This document shows, in pieces, positions 17,338 through 35,152 of a stretch of 35,883 nucleotides of DNA; the stretch's first letter is position 1; the number at the start of each line of letters is the position of its first letter. Source of the DNA: Deltaproteobacteria bacterium (lineage in GTDB: Bacteria; Desulfobacterota; Syntrophorhabdia; Syntrophorhabdales; JANXAF01). The notes beneath the pieces were generated by a model. That model searched no databases. It saw only the letters and a program-made list of their open reading frames with translations, and was not told the origin of the DNA. The stretch is taken from assembly GCA_026417175.1 (NCBI GenBank), contig JAOADT010000020.1, forward strand, positions 1 to 35,883, written 5' to 3'. The translations under genes and the position numbers were made by a program.

Positions 17338-20059
17338 TTATACATCTTTTGTATTCCAGCTCATCTTTTTTCTAATCAAGAATTTGATAATCTCCATAGA
17401 TATAAAAATAATTAGTCCGAAGGTCAGAATTAAAATGAGATCAGACTTAGTAGGAGTAAGAATCCCAAACGCATTACGAATTGAAGGCACATGTAACACA
17501 ATAATTATAAGCAATATCTCCCATCCTATAGCAAGTAACAACCACCTATGGGGCGGTGTCTTGAAAATACTATATCTCAAGGACCGGAAATTCAAAGCTA
17601 TGGTCAACTCTACAACCACAAAAAGGAGGAAAATCTCAGTCCGAGCATGCGCGATGTCTCTTAGGTTATGAAAATAAAGAAAATAAAAGAATGGAATTTC
17701 CACAACAAGTGCAAGGAGAATAAAGGCCTTCACATCCCATGAAAATACACTTTCTTTTGGGTCACGTGGAGGTCTTTGCATTACGTCCGGTTCAGGGGGA
17801 GAAACTCCAAGCGCAATCGCTGGAAGTCCGTCTGTCGCTAAATTTATATATAGAATTGCAGCAGGAAGCAAAGGCAAATATTCTGGACCCATTATAAGAA
17901 CAATTCCGCCTATAACCACAACTTCTGTTATATTACATCTGAGAAGGTAGGTGAGATATTTTTTAATGTTGTCGTAAATCCATCTTCCAAGTTCGATTGC
18001 CTTAACTATCGTGGCAAAGTTGTCATCTGTTAAGACCATGTCTGAAGCTTCTTTTGTTACTTCAGTACCGGTGATCCCCATAGCGATACCAATGTCAGCG
18101 TGTTTTAACGCGGGTGCATCGTTGACACCGTCACCGGTCATGGCAACTATTTCACCCCTATTTTTCCAAGCTTTCACAATCTTCAGTTTATCCATCGGGG
18201 AAACCCTGGCATAAACAGTTACCTTATCTACTATTTTTTCAAGTTCTTCTTCAGAAATTTTTTCAAGTTCCTCTCCAGTTAGGACAATATCACCCTCTTT
18301 AAAAATTCCTATCTCCCGTGCCACCGCAACTGCAGTAAGTTTGTGGTCTCCAGTTATCATCACAGGTTTTATGCCAACCTGCTTGCATATTTTTGTCGCT
18401 TCAATTGCTTCCTCCCTTGGAGGATCAATCATACCTATAAGGCCTAGAAAAATCATCCCTTTCTCAATATTATGTTCCGCAATTTCGTCTACTCCATTAT
18501 CTATGTGCTTATAAGCTACGCCCAGCACTCTCAGTGCCTCGTTGGCCATCTCCTCATTGATTTTTAAAATTTTATTTACATGAGATTCGGTCAGTTCTCT
18601 TAGTTCTCCGTTTTCTAAAATAAACGAGCACTCGCTCAAAACTATCTCAGGCGCTCCCTTCATAAACGCAATTAACTTATTTTCCTTCGTCCTGTGAATG
18701 GTTGTCATTCTTTTCCTTTCAGAGCTAAAAGGTATCTCACCAATACGGGGCTTCTCAAGTCTATTCTTTCTGAAGTCAACCCCTCCTTTTTTGGCGACGA
18801 CCAAAAGGGCCCCCTCTGTAGGGTCTCCTTTTACAAACCACTTTCCCGCGTGTTCATATAGATCTGCATCGTTACACAGAGTAACACCCTCAAGTAACAG
18901 ACCCAATGCCTTATCTTATGTAGGGTCAATTTTTTCTGAACCCCTTAGTTCGCCTTGGGGTGCATATCCAATACCTGTAACTTCGATGATTCTCTCAGAA
19001 GAAAAAAAGTTTCCTTACCGTCATTTCTCCCTTTGTCAAGGTTCCTGTCTTATCCGAACATATAACAGTCGTACACCCAAGGGTCTCCACTGCGGGCATC
19101 TTTCTAACAAGGGCATTTCTTTTGGCCATCTGGCGCATCCCAATTGCTAATGCTCCTGTAACGATCGCAGGTAGCGACTCAGGAACAGCAGCGACCGCAA
19201 GGGAAATAACAAACATGGCGAGTGTGATTGCTGAGGGAAGGTCTATTTTGCCACCAGAGAGAAACTCTCTTAATACGCTCACGCCTCCAACAAAAATACA
19301 CACACTCACAGCTATTATTCCGAGCCATCTTCCTATCTCCTCTGTTCTTCTCTCAAGCGGAGTTTTTTCAGTTTTTATTCCTGTCAACTGTTCCGCTATC
19401 TTGCCAAATTCGGTTTTCATGCCAGTAGAAGTAACAACTACCTTACCTCTACCATAGGTCACAGTAGTGCCGGCAAACACCATGTTTTTTCGGTCAGGAA
19501 CAGCCACGTCTTGGGACATTGTTTTTGTGTGTTTTCCTACCGGCGCAGACTCTCCTGTAAGCGCTGCCTCATCACATCTCAATGAATAACTTTCTATCAA
19601 TCTTCCATCTGCAGGTATTTTATCACCAGCCTCCAAAATCAGAATGTCTCCAGGAACTACGTCTTTTGTTAGTACTTCCTTTTCTTTCCCATCTCTCAAA
19701 ACTGTGATGGTGGGAGAGAGCATTTTTTTTAGCGCTTCTAAAGCTTTCTCCGCCCTGTATTCTTGGATAAATCCCAAAACCGCACAAAAAAAGACTATGA
19801 CTCCGATGATAACTGCGTCAAGAAATTCTCCAACAAGTGCGGAAAGGCCTATAGCGATAAGAAGTATAATAATTAAAATATTCTTGAATTGACGGATAAA
19901 AATGTCGAATGGAGAAACCCTTTCTTCTGATTTTAACTCATTATATCCAAACTCTTTTAACCGCGTTTCTATCTCACTTTCCGATAAGCCGTTAATAGCA
20001 TCTGTGTTGAGTTCTTTTATGACTTGTGATACGTCCATAGCATGCCAAGGGCGTGTCAT
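17338..20059 (-). pseudogene. Ca2+-type cation-transporting P-type ATPase, interrupted
   Basis: About 900 codons of a P2-type ATPase (SERCA/PMR1-like) in two open pieces. The first (20059-18995) has the cation-ATPase N domain, the actuator motif LTGES, the transmembrane ion motif PESLP and the phosphorylation site CSDKTGTLT. Between the pieces lie a frameshift in a run of seven A/T at 19002-19008 and a TAA at 18916-18918. The intervening sequence still reads SERIIEVTGIGYAPQGEL. The second piece (to 17338) has KGDPTEGALL, MTGDGVNDAPALKHADIGIA and the C-terminal helices. The start has an excellent AAAGGAGGG seven bases ahead. With two lesions within 100 bases the pump is probably dead; the homopolymer alone could be a sequencing error, the stop could not. 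Confidence 0.85.
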
Positions 20060-28189: not shown

Positions 28190-29524
28190 TTAGTCTGTGT
28201 AAACTTCAAAAACCCCCTTCCTTTCTCTTACTGTCTCTATCGGTTTTACTATTTTCGGTGTGACGTCAATTTTTCTGTACACCTTGAACCTTAAATCGTC
28301 TCTCTCAAAGCCGCACTCAAGTGTAATCTCTATATCAACTGGATCCGTTATCTCTTGCTCTTTCACAACTAGTGCTATTTCTTTACCAATTTTTCTTTTC
28401 GACGCATAAAGCATATCTGTCCCCTGGTAAAATATTGGATGAAAGCTGGCTCCTATCACATGGGTACCTTCTTCAAGATAAAAAACGGCTTCTTCATTCT
28501 CTGCTAATTTCACTAGTTTTCCGTTAAGCTTAATTTCTACATTGCCTGGACTTATTCTGTTGAATCTAATCTTCTTCTCCAAAATCGTATATCTAAAATC
28601 CACATCAAGTTTTGCTTCTCTTTCAGCAATTTCTTTCTGTTCATAAGATGAAGGAAAGAAGTGAACTTTTTTATAAGATATCCTAGCTTGCTGATGTTTT
28701 TTAGGTTTCAACGGTCTATAGGGTTCTATTACCTGTGTTAGATGGTCAAGGTATTTGCTTTTGGGAAGTCTATGGACTATTCTTTTTTCTCCAAAGTTCC
28801 TGTCAATATAATAAAGTGAAATAGAGATCGACTCGTTCTCCACAGTGTAGCTGCCCATCACTACAACATCAATATTGCTCATTTTCATAACCGTTTTCAA
28901 CCTCTCCATCTCCTCTGGATAAAAGAAATCAGTCCCTAGCTTAAAATATGATTCAGGATACAGTATCATCTCCTTTAACTTTTCGGCCTCACCTCTTTCA
29001 ACGAGTTTTAGTTGTCCTTTATTCCACGCAAGGTTTCCTATTTCTTTCTCGATCAGATGGGAAAATAAAGTCCTCCTGTTTTCATTATCGTAAATACCCG
29101 CAAGATAAATTAGAAGGGACGCATCTGGTTTGTAAGGGTCTAGTATGTTTTTTAATAAAGAGATAAGCATGGAGCCTATCGTCTCGTCAGTCCACTCAAT
29201 CTTTTCATATAGTACCGCGTCTCCGGTTTCTATTTCTATTGAAGTCTTTACGATTTCGCAAATGGTTCGCGCTTTAGATGTTTTAACAGCGATACATTCA
29301 CCAACAACGTTTCCACCAAATTGCCTTGTTTTAACGAGTTTGAGTATGTCTCCCTTTAAAACCCCTTCCTTTTCCCCAATATCTATGATCACTTTTTCCC
29401 CATTTGCAACGAAAAGTCTGTTACTTTCCGTTGAGATCACTTTCCCTCTATTTGCTCCGTATAAAAACCCCTCCAACACAATTAGTAACGCAGTAATAAT
29501 GATGGTATACTTTAGAAATTTCAT
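28190..29524 (-). CDS. Exported protein of the pilus operon, FlgT/CsgG-like fragments, family not recognised
   Basis: 444 residues with a signal peptide at about 1-23. Residues 27-110 (GKVISTESNRLFVANG ... GDILKLVK) resemble the beta-barrel C-domain of the flagellar protein FlgT. Around 165-270 a stretch with GQLKLVERGEAEKL and VVVMGSYTVE resembles the FlgO/CsgG-type nucleotide-fold domain of outer-membrane accessory proteins. The C-terminal third is beta-rich and PEGA-like. Its ATG abuts the pilQ stop, so it belongs to the pilus operon. It may be a periplasmic or outer-membrane partner of the secretin. This is inference from position and weak resemblance. No lipobox cysteine is seen. Confidence 0.6.
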   Translation of the reverse strand: MKFLKYTIIITALLIVLEGFLYGANRGKVISTESNRLFVANGEKVIIDIGEKEGVLKGDILKLVKTRQFGGNVVGECIAVKTSKARTICEIVKTSIEIETGDAVLYEKIEWTDETIGSMLISLLKNILDPYKPDASLLIYLAGIYDNENRRTLFSHLIEKEIGNLAWNKGQLKLVERGEAEKLKEMILYPESYFKLGTDFFYPEEMERLKTVMKMSNIDVVVMGSYTVENESISISLYYIDRNFGEKRIVHRLPKSKYLDHLTQVIEPYRPLKPKKHQQARISYKKVHFFPSSYEQKEIAEREAKLDVDFRYTILEKKIRFNRISPGNVEIKLNGKLVKLAENEEAVFYLEEGTHVIGASFHPIFYQGTDMLYASKRKIGKEIALVVKEQEITDPVDIEITLECGFERDDLRFKVYRKIDVTPKIVKPIETVRERKGVFEVYTD

Positions 29525-30952
29525 TTAACCACCTTCTTTTACATAGTTTTTAATGATCTTTGGTGTAATAAAGATTAGAAGCTCTGTTTTTTTATCCATC
29601 CTAGTATCTTTTTTAAATAACCAACTCAGCAACGGAATCCGTCTTAAAAACGGAACGCCAGTTGTGGTGTCAGAATCTTCTATTTCGTATATGCCCCCAA
29701 TAACCGCGGTTTCTCCGTCCTTTACAATTACCTCAGTGGATGCTTCTTTCTTATCTATCGGGATTCCGCCCACCACAGGAGCTAAAGGCCTATCCTTAGT
29801 AGCCTTTATTTTAAGTTTAATGTTATTGTCCTTGGTAACTTGAGGAGTGACTTCAAGAGAAAGAACTGCATCTTTAAGCTCCGTTTGGGTACCCTGTTGA
29901 GATACCGTCTGGTAAGGAATCTGCTGACCCTGTTTTATAACTGCGGGTTTGTTGTCAGTTGTTATTATTTTTGGATTAGAGATAACTTTCCCTTTTCCCT
30001 CGCTTTCCAAAGCACTTAATTGGACGTCAAGATTTAGAGAATCGGCGACAGACCCTATATAAATGCCCAAAACGCCACCGGCGCCAGTTCCTACGGCAGC
30101 GGGTAAATTAACGTTGTAAGGAAAAGTTGTACCTGATCTAAATCCCACAATATCCGTTGTTGAAGTATAAGTAGAAGTATCAGAAGAGGAACCGTAATCT
30201 TTCCCACCGCCTATTTCCAATCTTCTATTGTCCAGTTTGGTTATATATCGCGCGCCCCATTGGATACCCAGCTCTTTGGAGAAATCAGCCGTTGCTTGCA
30301 CTATTCTTGCCTCAATCTGAACCTGAGCGGGTGGAAAATCGTGCTCTCTTATCATTTTTTTTATTAGTGCCACATTCTCTTTTGTGTCTCTAACGATTAT
30401 CGCGTTACTCCAAGGAACAGGAGTAACTGTGCCGTACTCGGACAAAAGCCCCCTAAGTTGAGCACCTGGAGCTCCAGGAGCAATTCCAGTAAGCTCCCCG
30501 CGTAAAACTTTTACAACTTCAGATGCAGATGTATAGTTAAGAAAAATCGTTTCCGTGACAAACTCTTCACCTTGTTTCAGTTTTTCTATCCTTTCCTTTT
30601 GAAAGAATTCTCTTTCTTTTCGCTCTCTTTCTTTTTCTTCGTCATACTTTTTTCTAGTAACGATACGGATAATGTTTTCCTCTTCAATCTTAACGTTATC
30701 AGTAATCTTCACAATCACATCAAGGGCTTCGTCCCAAGTTACATTCTCAAGCTTTATAGTCAATCTTCCCTTGACATCTTCAGCAATAACAATATTTTTT
30801 TTTGCTATTTCGGCTAAACCTCTCAACACGTTCCTTAGATCTGCATCTATAAAATCAAAAGACAACCGAAGTGGTTTTTGAGACTCCTGCGAGAAAAGCA
30901 AAAAGGGTAAAAAAACCAGAATTGCAAAAATACTAGCTTTGAATGCCTTCAT
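29525..30952 (-). CDS. pilQ: Type IV pilus secretin
   Basis: 475 residues, short for PilQ (usually 600-900). A signal peptide at 1-21 is followed by an STN domain (about 29-80, LRNVLRGLAEIAKKNIVIAE), a highly charged linker (102-128), a NolW-like N domain (about 132-205, TSASEVVKVLRGEL) and the secretin beta-barrel (about 260-470). The barrel includes VISNPKIITTDNKPAVIKQG and the signature VPFLRRIPLLSWLFK...LLIFITPKII. It lacks the N-terminal AMIN peptidoglycan-binding domains of longer PilQ proteins. It forms the outer-membrane pore for the pilus fibre. It lies downstream of pilP in the same operon. Confidence 0.93.
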   Translation of the reverse strand: MKAFKASIFAILVFLPFLLFSQESQKPLRLSFDFIDADLRNVLRGLAEIAKKNIVIAEDVKGRLTIKLENVTWDEALDVIVKITDNVKIEEENIIRIVTRKKYDEEKERERKEREFFQKERIEKLKQGEEFVTETIFLNYTSASEVVKVLRGELTGIAPGAPGAQLRGLLSEYGTVTPVPWSNAIIVRDTKENVALIKKMIREHDFPPAQVQIEARIVQATADFSKELGIQWGARYITKLDNRRLEIGGGKDYGSSSDTSTYTSTTDIVGFRSGTTFPYNVNLPAAVGTGAGGVLGIYIGSVADSLNLDVQLSALESEGKGKVISNPKIITTDNKPAVIKQGQQIPYQTVSQQGTQTELKDAVLSLEVTPQVTKDNNIKLKIKATKDRPLAPVVGGIPIDKKEASTEVIVKDGETAVIGGIYEIEDSDTTTGVPFLRRIPLLSWLFKKDTRMDKKTELLIFITPKIIKNYVKEGG

Positions 30953-30976: not shown

Positions 30977-31921
30977 TCATTTTTTGCCTTGTACGTCCAT
31001 CACTATTGTCCGAACTTCATTTTTCAGTCTGTAACCGCATACTATTTTTTCGTCGCTTATGTCGACAATCCAAAGATTTTTATTAATGTAATCACCTCGC
31101 CTAAAAAGGATCCCATTTCCCTGTTTATCCTCCATCATCACAAGTTTTTCTTTGTCAGTCTTGAGAATTCCAACAACTTTCAGCTCCTCCAGCTCATAAC
31201 CTCCTTTTTCCGACTTTTCTTTCAATGCTCTCTTTCTTTGATTCAGTATAACCGCAAAAAAAGGATCTCTTTTGCCTTTTGAAGTGTAAGTAAACTCCTC
31301 TAAATCTCCATCAGCTTCCTCTTTACTTTTGACTACATTCAGTTTAACCTGCTCTACCCCCTTCTCTTTCGACAACTCTACGGGCTGTTTCTTTTCATCA
31401 ATGGATTTGGAGGGTCCATCTTTAGATACAGACAAGGCCTGCGAGGATAGAGAAAAGCTGTCTACCATCCACTTATCACTGCTGTACACAAGAGCTACGT
31501 CTATGAGTGCTCTTCCCTTTTCATAAATCGCATCCGCTTTGTAATTTGCTTTTATAACTATAGCTTTTCCTTTTAAATCGAACGTAACCTTACCGTGATA
31601 ATCGATGAGCGCTTTTAGGCTACCTAATTTTTCTCCATAGAAGTTAAATGTCCTCGTCAATTCACGTACATCCGCTTTTTCATTGAATTCCCTTGAAGCT
31701 CTCAGCAAAAGCTCTCTGTAATTCCAATTCTTTGTAACCGATAAAATCACTTCCCTAGTATAGGCTCTTGCTGACATTTCAAGTTCTTTAAAGATGGCAT
31801 AACCTCGATATGAAGCAGCTCCAAAAATAATGACTATCACCCCTACAATGTAAAGTGCAGTTTTACCTTTTTTCTTTTTTTTAATTTCTAATTTTTGTTT
31901 ACTTCTTTGTAGGAGTCTCAA
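30977..31921 (-). CDS. pilP: PilP fused to an N-terminal membrane-anchored domain
   Basis: 314 residues. Residues 211-314 are PilP-like (TYTSKGKRDPFFAVI, then LEELKVVGIL, GILFRRGDYINKN, EVRTIVMDVQGKK). PilP is normally a short lipoprotein that links PilNO to the secretin. Here, instead of a lipobox, the chain begins with a basic segment, one membrane helix (about 21-40) and an extra domain (about 45-165) of unknown family with a cystatin/NTF2-like look. A charged linker follows. The start is TTG 31921, with GAGGGT nine bases ahead inside the end of pilO. The N-terminal extension may replace the lipid anchor. Confidence 0.85.
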   Translation of the reverse strand: MRLLQRSKQKLEIKKKKKGKTALYIVGVIVIIFGAASYRGYAIFKELEMSARAYTREVILSVTKNWNYRELLLRASREFNEKADVRELTRTFNFYGEKLGSLKALIDYHGKVTFDLKGKAIVIKANYKADAIYEKGRALIDVALVYSSDKWMVDSFSLSSQALSVSKDGPSKSIDEKKQPVELSKEKGVEQVKLNVVKSKEEADGDLEEFTYTSKGKRDPFFAVILNQRKRALKEKSEKGGYELEELKVVGILKTDKEKLVMMEDKQGNGILFRRGDYINKNLWIVDISDEKIVCGYRLKNEVRTIVMDVQGKK

Positions 31922-32516
31922 CTTTCTTACCCTCTATTGGTTTCTCTGGAGTATAAACATATGTTTTGGCTGTACACGATCCATCTAAAACTAAAGCTTG
32001 AGATGCCGGTCCTTTCGCCTCCAAAGTAAAGTTAACCACATGTATTATTCTTTTTTCCCTCCTTATTCCGTCAAAAAAGTAACCTATATTATGGTAAGGA
32101 CCTGTGAACTTAATCTCAAACGGAAACTCTGCATAAAATTCCTTCTGGAGGGGAGGTTTTGGCTCAAAGTATTTAACCTTGATCTTCGTCTCCGTACCCA
32201 AATTCGATACACTTCTCAATAAATTTGGAACATCTTTGGCTTCTGGAAGTTCTTTCATAGTTTCCTCGAAAACATTCCTAAGCTCCATATACTCCCTTCT
32301 AAAGTTATCTATGTTTCTGTTTATGTTTGTTAAACTTTGAAATTTTCTATCCAAATCTTGAAGTTCAGTAGCTAGTCTTCTTTCGGTTTCCACATTAGGT
32401 TTAATCACGAAATTAAATAGTCCAGACACTATCAAAATATTTAAGACTATTATGACCGATATCCTGTATATTCTTGGAATTTTCTGTATTCTTCTAGAGA
32501 AAGCCCTTTTTTCCAT
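31899..32516 (-). CDS. pilO: Type IV pilus inner-membrane protein PilO
   Basis: 205 residues: short cytoplasmic tail, one membrane helix (about 18-38), coiled coil (about 41-95) and a periplasmic ferredoxin-like fold (YFEPKPPLQKEFYAEFPFEI, then GPYHNIGYFFDGI). PilO pairs with PilN to align the pilus motor with the secretin. Its C-terminal 23 bases overlap the start of the pilP fusion. It sits nine bases after pilN. Confidence 0.9.
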   Translation of the reverse strand: MEKRAFSRRIQKIPRIYRISVIIVLNILIVSGLFNFVIKPNVETERRLATELQDLDRKFQSLTNINRNIDNFRREYMELRNVFEETMKELPEAKDVPNLLRSVSNLGTETKIKVKYFEPKPPLQKEFYAEFPFEIKFTGPYHNIGYFFDGIRREKRIIHVVNFTLEAKGPASQALVLDGSCTAKTYVYTPEKPIEGKKVETPTKK

Positions 32517-32525
32517 CTCAATTTT

Positions 32526-33059
32526 TTACAAAATAATATCCCCCTGAATCACAAACTTTCTCACAGCCAGGCCTTCTTCAACCGTCTCTTCCACGTTAAC
32601 AAGTTCAACATTTCTCATGTACGGTAGCCTCGAAAGCTGTTCCATGAAATCTGCCACAGATTCATTTTCTATAGCCCGTCCCTCTATCGTTAATTTTGCA
32701 TCGGTTTTTTTTAAGCTTTTAAGCCAAATCGATTCTTTTGTAACATTTGTGATATCGTAAAGTATCCTGGCTGGAAGTGCTCTCCCTTTCTTTATAGTCT
32801 TGACCACTGTCAGTCTCTTCTGTATTTCCCTTTTGTCTTTTTCCATCGCCATGTACTCTCTATATGTCCCTTCCAAACTAGAAATTTGTTTCTTTTTTTC
32901 TTCTATCTGCCTCTGAATATCTGAAATCCTGTTTTTGGTTGAGTAGTACGAAATGCCAAAAATAACAAGACTTACCGAGAGTAAAACTAAAAAAGTGACC
33001 ACATCGAAAGTGAACGAAGGTTTTTTCTCGGGAACTGGAAGAAGATTAATTTTTATCAT
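32526..33059 (-). CDS. pilN: Type IV pilus inner-membrane protein PilN
   Basis: 177 residues. The N-terminus MIKINLLPVPEK holds the conserved INLLP motif that docks into PilM. One membrane helix (about 17-39) is followed by a coiled coil (about 46-85) and a periplasmic ferredoxin-like domain. The start ATG follows the pilM stop with a single base between (TAAAATG), so the two are translationally coupled. Confidence 0.92.
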   Translation of the reverse strand: MIKINLLPVPEKKPSFTFDVVTFLVLLSVSLVIFGISYYSTKNRISDIQRQIEEKKKQISSLEGTYREYMAMEKDKREIQKRLTVVKTIKKGRALPARILYDITNVTKESIWLKSLKKTDAKLTIEGRAIENESVADFMEQLSRLPYMRNVELVNVEETVEEGLAVRKFVIQGDIIL

Positions 33060-33060
33060 T

Positions 33061-34116
33061 TTACTGAAGTTCTTTTATTCTCGCCGATAGCTGTAACGCT
33101 ACCGGCATAAATACCATATACTCTTCGATAGTCTTGTCGGCTTTATAGTTTTGACCTAATAGAAGAAAAGGGTTTACAGTTTCCACTTCAAGACCTGTCT
33201 CCTCTTTTATTTTCTCCTTAAGACCAACTAATAGGGATGATCCTCCTGTTACGTAGACTTTTTCTACTGTCTCTGATGTCTTTATGGAACGGAAAAAATT
33301 AATCGTTTTATTTATTTCACTCGTAATATTAAAGATAAAGTCCTCAAAAAGATACGCGAGTTCTGAATCCCCGCTTATCTTCTTCTTTTCAGCTTCACTG
33401 TAAGGTATCTTAAGAGTTTTTTCGATTTGACTGGTTAGGTATTTACCCCCTACAGCTATTTCCCGTGTGAATTCAAGGTCAGAACCTTTAACTATGGCAA
33501 TATTTGTAAATGAAGATCCGATATCCGCTACAAGTACATTATTTTTCGGCCGATAGACCTCTGCCACTATATTTGCCACATTAACTATATCGACATCTAA
33601 TATCCTAAGCTTAAGCCCTGCCCTGTCAAAAGTATTCATGTAACCTTCGACTATCTCTTTTTTTGCAGCGACTATCATAACCTGCATGAACCCTTCCTTT
33701 TCGGGATCTGGTCCTATAACGTGGTAACTGTAAAAAATGTCTTTCGAGGGCAAAGGGATCTGTGTCTCAACCTCTGCACCTATAACACCTTGCAGGGCCT
33801 CTTCATCCACATATGGAATTGAAACTTTTTTCATCATTGTGGCGTAGCTGGATACGGCGCTTGCAGCATCAGTGCTTCTTATATCTTCGAGTTTAAGTAT
33901 TCTTTTTATCTCTTCAGCGAGGAAAAACTCATCAATAATGACCCCATCGCTTAAAAGATCTCGATCATAATCTTTTTTGGAGATCCTTTTTAATCCGAAT
34001 CCCTTTCTTTTTCTTTCTAAAACGCATACCTTGACACTGGAAGTCCCAATGTCGAAACCAATCAACTCCTTCACAGTCTTCAGACCTATTCGTTCAAGAA
34101 ACGATTCCTTTCTCAT
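33061..34116 (-). CDS. pilM: Type IV pilus assembly ATPase-like protein PilM
   Basis: 351-residue cytoplasmic actin-like protein that binds the PilN tail. Phosphate-binding motifs are FDIGTSSVKVCV (21-32) and ADIGSSFTNIAIV (about 197-209), with adenosine motif VTGGSSLLVGL. The SHS2-type insert is present with QIPLPSKDIFYSYHV. The start ATG follows the galT stop by seven bases; the ribosome site is weak. The gene opens the pilMNOPQ series. Confidence 0.93.
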   Translation of the reverse strand: MRKESFLERIGLKTVKELIGFDIGTSSVKVCVLERKRKGFGLKRISKKDYDRDLLSDGVIIDEFFLAEEIKRILKLEDIRSTDAASAVSSYATMMKKVSIPYVDEEALQGVIGAEVETQIPLPSKDIFYSYHVIGPDPEKEGFMQVMIVAAKKEIVEGYMNTFDRAGLKLRILDVDIVNVANIVAEVYRPKNNVLVADIGSSFTNIAIVKGSDLEFTREIAVGGKYLTSQIEKTLKIPYSEAEKKKISGDSELAYLFEDFIFNITSEINKTINFFRSIKTSETVEKVYVTGGSSLLVGLKEKIKEETGLEVETVNPFLLLGQNYKADKTIEEYMVFMPVALQLSARIKELQ

Positions 34117-34123
34117 GACTTTT

Positions 34124-35152
34124 CTATTCTACACATATGTTTTTCATTTCTTTGGCAACTTCCTCTGGCAATATGACAGATGTAGATTCCATGTGCAACG
34201 TGTAAAAGTAGTTTGTATCCGCCGCTCCAAGTGGTGGTAAAAATCTTCTCCCCAAAATTCTTAAATTTGCCTTAAAAGATTTTCCGGAGTTGGGCATTGC
34301 CGAGAAAAAAGATAGGTTAAAACCTGGAACATTTTCAGATTTGAAATAGGTAACTACCTTTCTTAAACCTTCTTTAAAATCGTTTAGATCTTCTTCCTCG
34401 AGATCCAAAATTGAAGTTTTATTAAAAATACAGCCTATATCTAGGTTTCCCTTCGGTGCAAACGGTACATACCAAAAAGTGTTTTCTGTCGCCCATATCA
34501 CTCTTTCACCCTTTTCGTATTCACAATCCTTTAACACATCCCAGTAACACTCTCCGAACTTCTTAAAGAAAAGATCGCTTTTTTTCAGTATCATCCTATG
34601 ATAATTTGTTCCCACCTCTCCCGCTATTGCCTGAACATGAGGGTGTAGAATACTGCTGCCTGACATTGGCATATAATTGCAGTTTATGGATAAATACTTA
34701 ACTGTTCGATCTTTTTCGGCTATTCTTTTGAGTATGTTGATTAACACTCTTATTCCTTCTACGAGATATCCTTTGTTCACAATATCGGCCATATCCATAA
34801 AATGTTCCTTGGATATAATAGCAATGACGCAATACTTATCGAACGTCAAAAGATTAGGAATAACAGTGACGTTGCCAAATTTTAATCTTTCTTTTCCGAA
34901 GAGAGTTCTTTCAAATTTGGAAGTCATAGTAGGTATATTCTGAGGACAAAAAGGGCAGGTATCGGGCGGAGCCATTTTTGGTAAAAGATCCGTATGGTAC
35001 TTTTCGAATTTTTTTGTCGGAAAGTGAACGATTCTTGAAGTTAGTCTCGTCAATGGATCCCAACGAACTTCAATTTTGCCTTCGAATGGTTGAAAACCCT
35101 GGATTGGACTGAGATATGTAAACGTTTGAATTTTCTTTTTAAATCTGATCAC
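34124..35152 (-). CDS. galT: Galactose-1-phosphate uridylyltransferase family protein
   Basis: 342 residues. GalT swaps UMP between UDP-glucose and galactose-1-phosphate; relatives act as ADP-glucose phosphorylases or on other sugar-nucleotides. The catalytic motif is SSILHPHVQAI, with the nucleophilic His in HPHxQ (H170/H172, Q174). A CPFCPQN pair (C66/C69) probably binds zinc. A second substrate motif reads NLSFFSAMPNSGKS. The N-terminal RWDPLTRLTSRI resembles the canonical RKDPVTGRWVII only loosely. The start is GTG 35152. It ends seven bases before pilM, so it is in the pilus operon and may supply sugar for pilin glycosylation or surface polysaccharide. Confidence 0.8.
   Translation of the reverse strand: MIRFKKKIQTFTYLSPIQGFQPFEGKIEVRWDPLTRLTSRIVHFPTKKFEKYHTDLLPKMAPPDTCPFCPQNIPTMTSKFERTLFGKERLKFGNVTVIPNLLTFDKYCVIAIISKEHFMDMADIVNKGYLVEGIRVLINILKRIAEKDRTVKYLSINCNYMPMSGSSILHPHVQAIAGEVGTNYHRMILKKSDLFFKKFGECYWDVLKDCEYEKGERVIWATENTFWYVPFAPKGNLDIGCIFNKTSILDLEEEDLNDFKEGLRKVVTYFKSENVPGFNLSFFSAMPNSGKSFKANLRILGRRFLPPLGAADTNYFYTLHMESTSVILPEEVAKEMKNICVE

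Follow-up and report, generated by a model that had tools for sequence, protein, structure and literature searches.

How the secretin of a type IV pilus is fixed in the cell wall is still debated, and the two well-known answers are the AMIN domain of PilQ and the LysM domain of TsaP. As regards the first of these, the accessible text of PMC5285504 describes AMIN as binding peptidoglycan and reports that Pseudomonas aeruginosa PilQ lacking it forms oligomers that are stable but non-functional, and in Myxococcus the AMIN domains are needed for polar recruitment (PMC10653833, in its accessible part). As regards the second, TsaP is described as peripheral to PilQ secretin rings, its loss leaving fibres inside the periplasm (PMC4471445, partial text), and in Nannocystineae and Sorangiineae the tsaP gene lies apart from pilMNOPQ (PMC6060248, partial text).

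The window considered here (the whole stretch of DNA that was analysed, 35,883 nucleotides) comes from a member of the order Syntrophorhabdales of the Desulfobacterota, whose bacteria are anaerobic and have been little studied, and contains a pilMNOPQ operon ending in a gene for a protein of 444 residues. Our preferred reading, based on homology, gene context and distribution and given a probability of roughly 0.6, is that this protein is a periplasmic collar or stabiliser of PilQ that takes the place of TsaP in this order, in which role it would presumably bind PilQ and anchor it. As the pil secretins of the order are found without AMIN or a LysM-bearing TsaP and always together with the 444-residue protein, this may be a third answer to the anchoring question, and one that comes with a testable gene.

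The gene and its operon

The relevant features, numbered from the first letter of the window, are as follows.

28190..29524, minus strand: pil-operon open reading frame of 444 residues, ATG start, last gene of the pilMNOPQ operon
29459..29524, minus strand: signal-peptide-like stretch, residues 1-22, from sequence and a model helix at 2-21, without a usable lipobox
29201..29458, minus strand: beta-barrel, residues 23-108, homologue of the last TsaP domain with the FlgT C-domain fold, from profiles and fold
29294..29296, minus strand: Cys77, present in 29 of the 30 aligned sequences, the remaining one being truncated at its N-terminus
29258..29260, minus strand: Cys89, present in all 30 aligned sequences
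28760..29185, minus strand: alpha/beta domain, residues 114-255, LpoB C-domain fold, from predicted-fold comparison
28274..28693, minus strand: transthyretin/Ig-like beta-sandwich and helical hairpin, residues 278-417, from the model
28193..28264, minus strand: low-confidence tail, residues 421-444, with a conserved short terminal motif, from the model and orthologues
29529..29535, minus strand: Shine-Dalgarno-like stretch within the 3' end of pilQ, a purine-rich stretch in most loci
29525..30952, minus strand: pilQ, 475 residues, N0, Secretin_N and secretin domains, no AMIN, from Pfam and NCBIfam domain scans
30977..31921, minus strand: pilP, from Pfam, intact
31899..32516, minus strand: pilO, from Pfam
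32526..33059, minus strand: pilN, from Pfam
33061..34116, minus strand: pilM, from Pfam

An earlier, sequence-only reading of this DNA had described a 444-residue gene at the end of the pil operon with its start touching the pilQ stop, and this is confirmed by the orthologues, by the pattern of codon changes and by the junction itself, where the ATG (29522-29524) abuts the pilQ stop codon (29525-29527) with a gap of 0 nt. Relative to the nearest orthologue there are 187, 152 and 289 changes at the three codon positions over 440 codons, and the frame appears to be under selection because the changes fall mainly in third positions. The plus strand of 28190-29524 is interrupted by stops throughout, and the next gene downstream, on the opposite strand, encodes a class III aminotransferase. 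The source genome is a metagenome-assembled genome (MAG) of 2.1 Mb in 97 contigs, 96% complete, and since it includes a PilB homologue (671.9 bits, just below the cut-off of 675.65) its type IV pilus is probably functional.

Several other features of the window and its genome may be recorded here. Directly before pilM lies a GalT-like gene (342 residues; 34124-35152, minus strand; NCBIfam galT models, E 2e-4 to 1e-3), and a GalT-like neighbour also precedes pilM in loci L045, L046 and L116. The source genome has a second, distant secretin (L120, G000:C6:34000-45000) with 23% identity to the PilQ of the window, adjoined by a PilB/GspE-like ATPase (C6:39549-41180). Finally, a cation P-type ATPase gene (17338-20059, minus strand) is split into two open reading frames in different frames, one comprising the N-terminal and actuator parts (18995-20059) and the other the catalytic and C-terminal parts (17338-18906); the frame change near a T-run, together with a further stop, suggests that the gene has decayed or that the assembly is at fault here.

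Distribution and pilQ context in Syntrophorhabdales

A search with the single protein found full-length or nearly full-length orthologues in 35 of the 46 genomes of the order (the source and 34 of the 45 others) and no clear orthologue outside Syntrophorhabdales. Profile searches of 297 genomes of the phylum likewise gave full-length matches confined to the order, with matches to the first domain only elsewhere. Aligned orthologues from 29 other genomes are 24-40% identical to the window protein. A scan of the genome contigs with the single protein gave no relative.

Had the homologues been found mostly away from pilus genes, this would have spoken against the sequence-only reading; what was found is that pilQ lies directly upstream in all 35 carrier genomes (29 genomes plus six further loci, including a second contig of G015 that was used for context, the first copy there being cut off by a contig end). 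The gap between pilQ and the open reading frame is exactly 0 nt in 29 of the 35 loci, a count in which L014, cut by a contig end, is without pilQ and in which L009 is kept despite a gap of -60 that reflects start choice and is meaningless, and in most loci a purine-rich stretch occurs just before the pilQ stop. This gap and this stretch together suggest translational coupling, and the 444-residue protein is probably translated coupled to PilQ. A separate observation on L009 (1-1500; G029) is that its otherwise intact pilQ contains one in-frame stop, explained either by misread sequence or by recent damage to the gene.

A close PilQ is likewise missing from the 11 Syntrophorhabdales genomes that lack a full copy, the best match having E 5e-27 where six carriers searched alongside gave E 2e-72 or better. 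Two of them, G019 and G033, retain its 3' end only: in G019 the 65 codons that are left lie inside a contig, and in G033 the piece sits at a contig edge; the G019 remnant, combined with the missing close PilQ, looks like joint loss of both genes. The genomes of the order are related, so that these counts of presence and absence are not independent.

Domain architecture

An AlphaFold2 model of the protein, built from 30 sequences, has a mean pLDDT of 86. Its barrel (residues 23-108) matches the C-domain of FlgT (8z5n, Z 10.5, rmsd 2.5, 78 residues aligned; 3w1e, Z 9.4), and Pfam FlgT_C matches residues 42-69 with E 3e-4, which is below Pfam's own cut-off, and 16 of the 30 members at E <= 0.1; the FlgT-like part proposed from the sequence is thereby borne out. 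The same barrel also matches the N-domains of F1-ATPase alpha subunits (Z 9.6), showing the fold to be a common one, and this counts against the collar reading. In the model Cys77 and Cys89 lie in neighbouring strands (73-82 and 87-94), making a disulfide across these strands likely.

Residues 114-255 match the C-domain of LpoB (4q6z, Z 9.5, rmsd 3.3, 120 residues aligned). A PDB sequence search with this domain gave no match and Pfam FlgO matches 1 of the 30 members (E 0.026), so that the CsgG/FlgO-like part of the earlier reading survives as a fold, with no clear sequence-family match. Structure prediction, which had been suggested as a check, thus returned both expected folds. The C-terminal part, modelled alone (pLDDT 83), is a transthyretin/Ig-like sandwich; its best match is the PepT1 outer domain (Z 8.5), followed by HIUase, transthyretin and TssJ (Z 6.8), and because these amount to a generic sandwich the domain was given no family name. 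The tail is disordered in the model and ends in the pattern acidic-x-Y/F-K/R/Q-D in 30 of 36 orthologues, that of the window protein (...EVYTD) being among the six outside it.

The suggestion that the protein is exported stands as a prediction, judged from a hydrophobic, signal-like N-terminal stretch seen on inspection of the sequences. A lipobox scan of 30 orthologues found none that was usable (the one lipobox-like stretch, at residues 7-10 of a single orthologue, lies too near the start), and Pfam scans of the protein and the 30 members found neither LysM nor any TPR family. Two other matches were set aside as chance: an NCBIfam aldolase model (E 0.03), the only NCBIfam match of the protein, and, in one family, a match of PilM residues 82-131 to positions 267-315 of the profile (E 0.002), the latter because fold searches with the C-terminal model gave no PilM, a silence that is not excluding.

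Homology of the first domain to TsaP

A search of PDB sequences with the single protein gave no match, and TsaP was reached only using family profiles. Run against 177,635 PDB sequences, the first-domain profile placed Myxococcus TsaP first (E 3.2e-5) and 6ve2_O second (E 0.056; a LysM protein identified as TsaP by full-length match), the next match having E 2.1, and the whole-family profile gave four matches only, two TsaPs among them (E 0.058 and 0.6). In profile-profile comparison with nine Desulfobacterota TsaPs, the first domain alone reached a probability of 98.1% (E 9e-14), and the whole family aligned through residues 23-109 with the last TsaP repeat (97.4%, E 1.2e-11); the other TsaP repeat matched with E 2e-9, both repeats aligning to this one region. 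The nine proteins (alignment A4, from nine of 22 loci read) were drawn from first-domain matches outside the order, including LysM proteins, and are taken to be TsaPs because their match to the two PDB TsaPs extends over the full length (E 9e-69 and 2e-59).

A family of genomically unlinked lipoproteins carrying an FlgT_C domain also matched, more weakly (E 1e-6), and this too counts against the collar reading; since the TsaP repeats score above these lipoproteins, the first domain belongs to a wide superfamily in which TsaP is its nearest relative. The domain is not new in itself, being a known TsaP/FlgT-type domain set in a new architecture.

Two further groups of proteins with such domains were noted. 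L032 (G000:C3) encodes a probable lipoprotein of 410 residues with an FlgT_C-like C-terminal domain (E 0.004); related proteins are found elsewhere in the order and the phylum, among them L076 and L077, whose genomes lack a window-type PilQ. L056 and L071 encode proteins of ~516-531 residues with a TsaP/FlgT-type N-terminal domain and a long C-terminal part; these were left out of the argument, their context being a different one, with an adjoining DsrC/TusE-like gene in both (by eye).

No LysM-bearing TsaP and no AMIN found in the order

At E <= 1e-20 the TsaP profile matched 147 of the 297 genomes from the phylum, a sample in which no Syntrophorhabdales genome was among the matches, and in none of the 46 Syntrophorhabdales genomes did it find LysM and the repeats in one open reading frame. 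All 46 gave partial matches only (E <= 0.01), to the LysM part (mostly in long open reading frames) or to the FlgT-type part; in the source genome the products of the LysM reading frames look, by eye, like an NlpC/P60 protein and a lytic transglycosylase. AMIN domains are absent from all 23 Syntrophorhabdales PilQs scanned, in which N0, Secretin_N and secretin domains are present; these 23 were taken from 49 PilQ-bearing loci after removal of copies cut by a contig end, of repeats from one genome and of L009. The co-occurrence with short PilQ proteins for which the earlier reading had suggested looking is therefore seen.

Lack of AMIN need not in itself imply a substitute, since PilQs without AMIN are known elsewhere (27 of 197, in the accessible part of PMC7545093). 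In the same way, 22 of the 147 TsaP-matching genomes lack the LysM part, and because 14 of these 22 have no LpoB-like match, loss of LysM does not require an LpoB-like partner.

Pil-adjacent relatives in families f12 and f22

In one genome of family f12 (G054), pilQ (with AMIN) is followed by a gene for a lone TsaP-type domain protein of 132 residues and then by one for a protein of ~374 residues; in another (G091), the same pair is encoded beside pilQ on the opposite strand, the second protein having a weak TolB_N match (E 0.034).

L122 8199-9753 and L123 9677-10816, opposite orientations: f12 lone TsaP-type domain gene and TolB_N/LpoB-like gene, beside pilQ

Both genomes are absent from the TsaP-profile matches. 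Homologues of the second f12 protein occur in 11 of the 297 phylum genomes, namely three of f12 and eight of f22. In all five of the eight f22 loci that were read (L142, L143, L144, L146 and L147), an unannotated gene for an LpoB-like exported protein lies immediately upstream of pilM, and all eight f22 genomes have a TsaP match without the LysM part. The f12 and f22 LpoB-like proteins are homologous to one another (97.7%, E 2e-12); compared with residues 116-232 of the window protein they give 58% and E 1e-4, against E 0.004-0.03 for control pairs, so that the sequence link to the middle domain is only suggestive. One might imagine, although it seems rather unlikely, that an LpoB-like module (fused here, split in f12, before pilM in f22) has taken over from the LysM of TsaP in several lineages of Desulfobacterota, and that what holds the secretin is the recruitment or regulation of a peptidoglycan synthase and not a grip on glycan, in which case the secretin collar would make its own socket in the cell wall.

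Proposed role and alternatives

The suggestion of a secretin collar made by the sequence-only reading gains support from the homology to the last TsaP domain, from the constant adjacency to pilQ and from the joint absence of the two genes. On the collar reading, the barrel of the exported protein, locked by the Cys77-Cys89 disulfide, would dock outside the PilQ ring as TsaP does, and the LpoB-like domain, beta-sandwich and tail would form an outer collar, presumably itself a ring, that keeps the AMIN-less secretin in the cell envelope. This collar might hold by way of peptidoglycan, a peptidoglycan enzyme or neighbouring copies, and the pilus would be extruded and retracted through the secretin so anchored.

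Of the other possibilities, the one we regard as unlikely, if the least so, is that the protein is a secretin-linked regulator of peptidoglycan synthesis, which uses its LpoB-like domain to recruit or activate a class A penicillin-binding protein (PBP) around the secretin and so makes room in the wall or reinforces it. The match to the LpoB C-domain fold, and the LpoB-like proteins found before pilM in f22 and beside pilQ in f12, would be in keeping with this; however, the protein has no lipid anchor, and the LpoB-type fold is common to CsgG, TolB-N, FlgT and others, most of which are not known to bind PBPs. Quite improbable, in our view, is the alternative offered in the sequence-only reading, a pilotin-like factor that escorts or stabilises PilQ monomers on their way to the outer membrane and departs once PilQ is assembled. 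The gene is tightly coupled to pilQ, as might suit a pilotin, and a recognisable PilW/PilF scores above the family cut-off in only one of the 46 genomes of the order, although that search (TIGR02521) says little because general TPR proteins match it, in 13 of 14 control genomes also. Tgl has a TPR fold, and it is the TPR domain that defines T4aP pilotins (PilF, PilW and Tgl), whereas the 444-residue protein has no TPR by Pfam. The Myxococcus pilotin Tgl is moreover an outer-membrane lipoprotein (PMC10653833, accessible part), but no usable lipobox is present here, and the homologous protein is part of a ring and no pilotin. Least probable of all is a subunit of the alignment complex bridging PilQ to PilP and PilO, or a chaperone, with the barrel as a generic docking module: such a protein might well be encoded with pilMNOP and use a common barrel fold, but the operon has its own intact pilP, and the other FlgT_C family compared is more distant from the barrel than TsaP is.

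If the collar reading is right, it gives a function to a gene that stands unannotated in many anaerobic, syntrophic MAGs, and the gene's place in the operon could mark TsaP function in lineages that show no tsaP.

Comparison with known systems

A search of mainly openly accessible papers, judged in part by title and the opening of the abstract, found no report joining FlgT- and LpoB-type parts with a pilus secretin. The nearest system is TsaP (PDB 3jc8, 6ve2), whose last domain is homologous to the barrel; both proteins appear to be exported, the tie to PilQ here being one of operon and co-occurrence. Unlike TsaP, the 444-residue protein has no LysM and one FlgT-type repeat instead of two, adds the LpoB-like and beta-sandwich domains, and is encoded within the pil operon. 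Pfam found no known peptidoglycan-binding motif in it, and with LysM and the first TsaP repeat missing, peptidoglycan binding is unsupported by any such motif.

FlgT, of the flagellar H/T ring (PDB 3w1e, 8z5n), shares the C-domain fold and the combination of barrel and alpha/beta domain, the latter being its M-domain in the order N-M-C. In the 444-residue protein, by contrast, the barrel comes first, an extra sandwich follows at the C-terminus, and the companion is a pilus secretin, the gene context being pilMNOPQ and not flagellar (at this locus). The C-terminal domain of LpoB (4q6z) resembles residues 114-255 in fold (Z 9.5), but the protein differs from LpoB in lacking a lipid anchor, in having no sequence similarity detectable by PDB search and in being fused to a TsaP-type barrel. 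The LpoB-like proteins of f12 and f22 are alike in having pil genes as neighbours and in having an LpoB/TolB-like part followed by a further domain; they differ in being separate from the TsaP-type domain and, in f22, in being encoded before pilM, whereas here both parts are joined in one protein encoded directly after pilQ.
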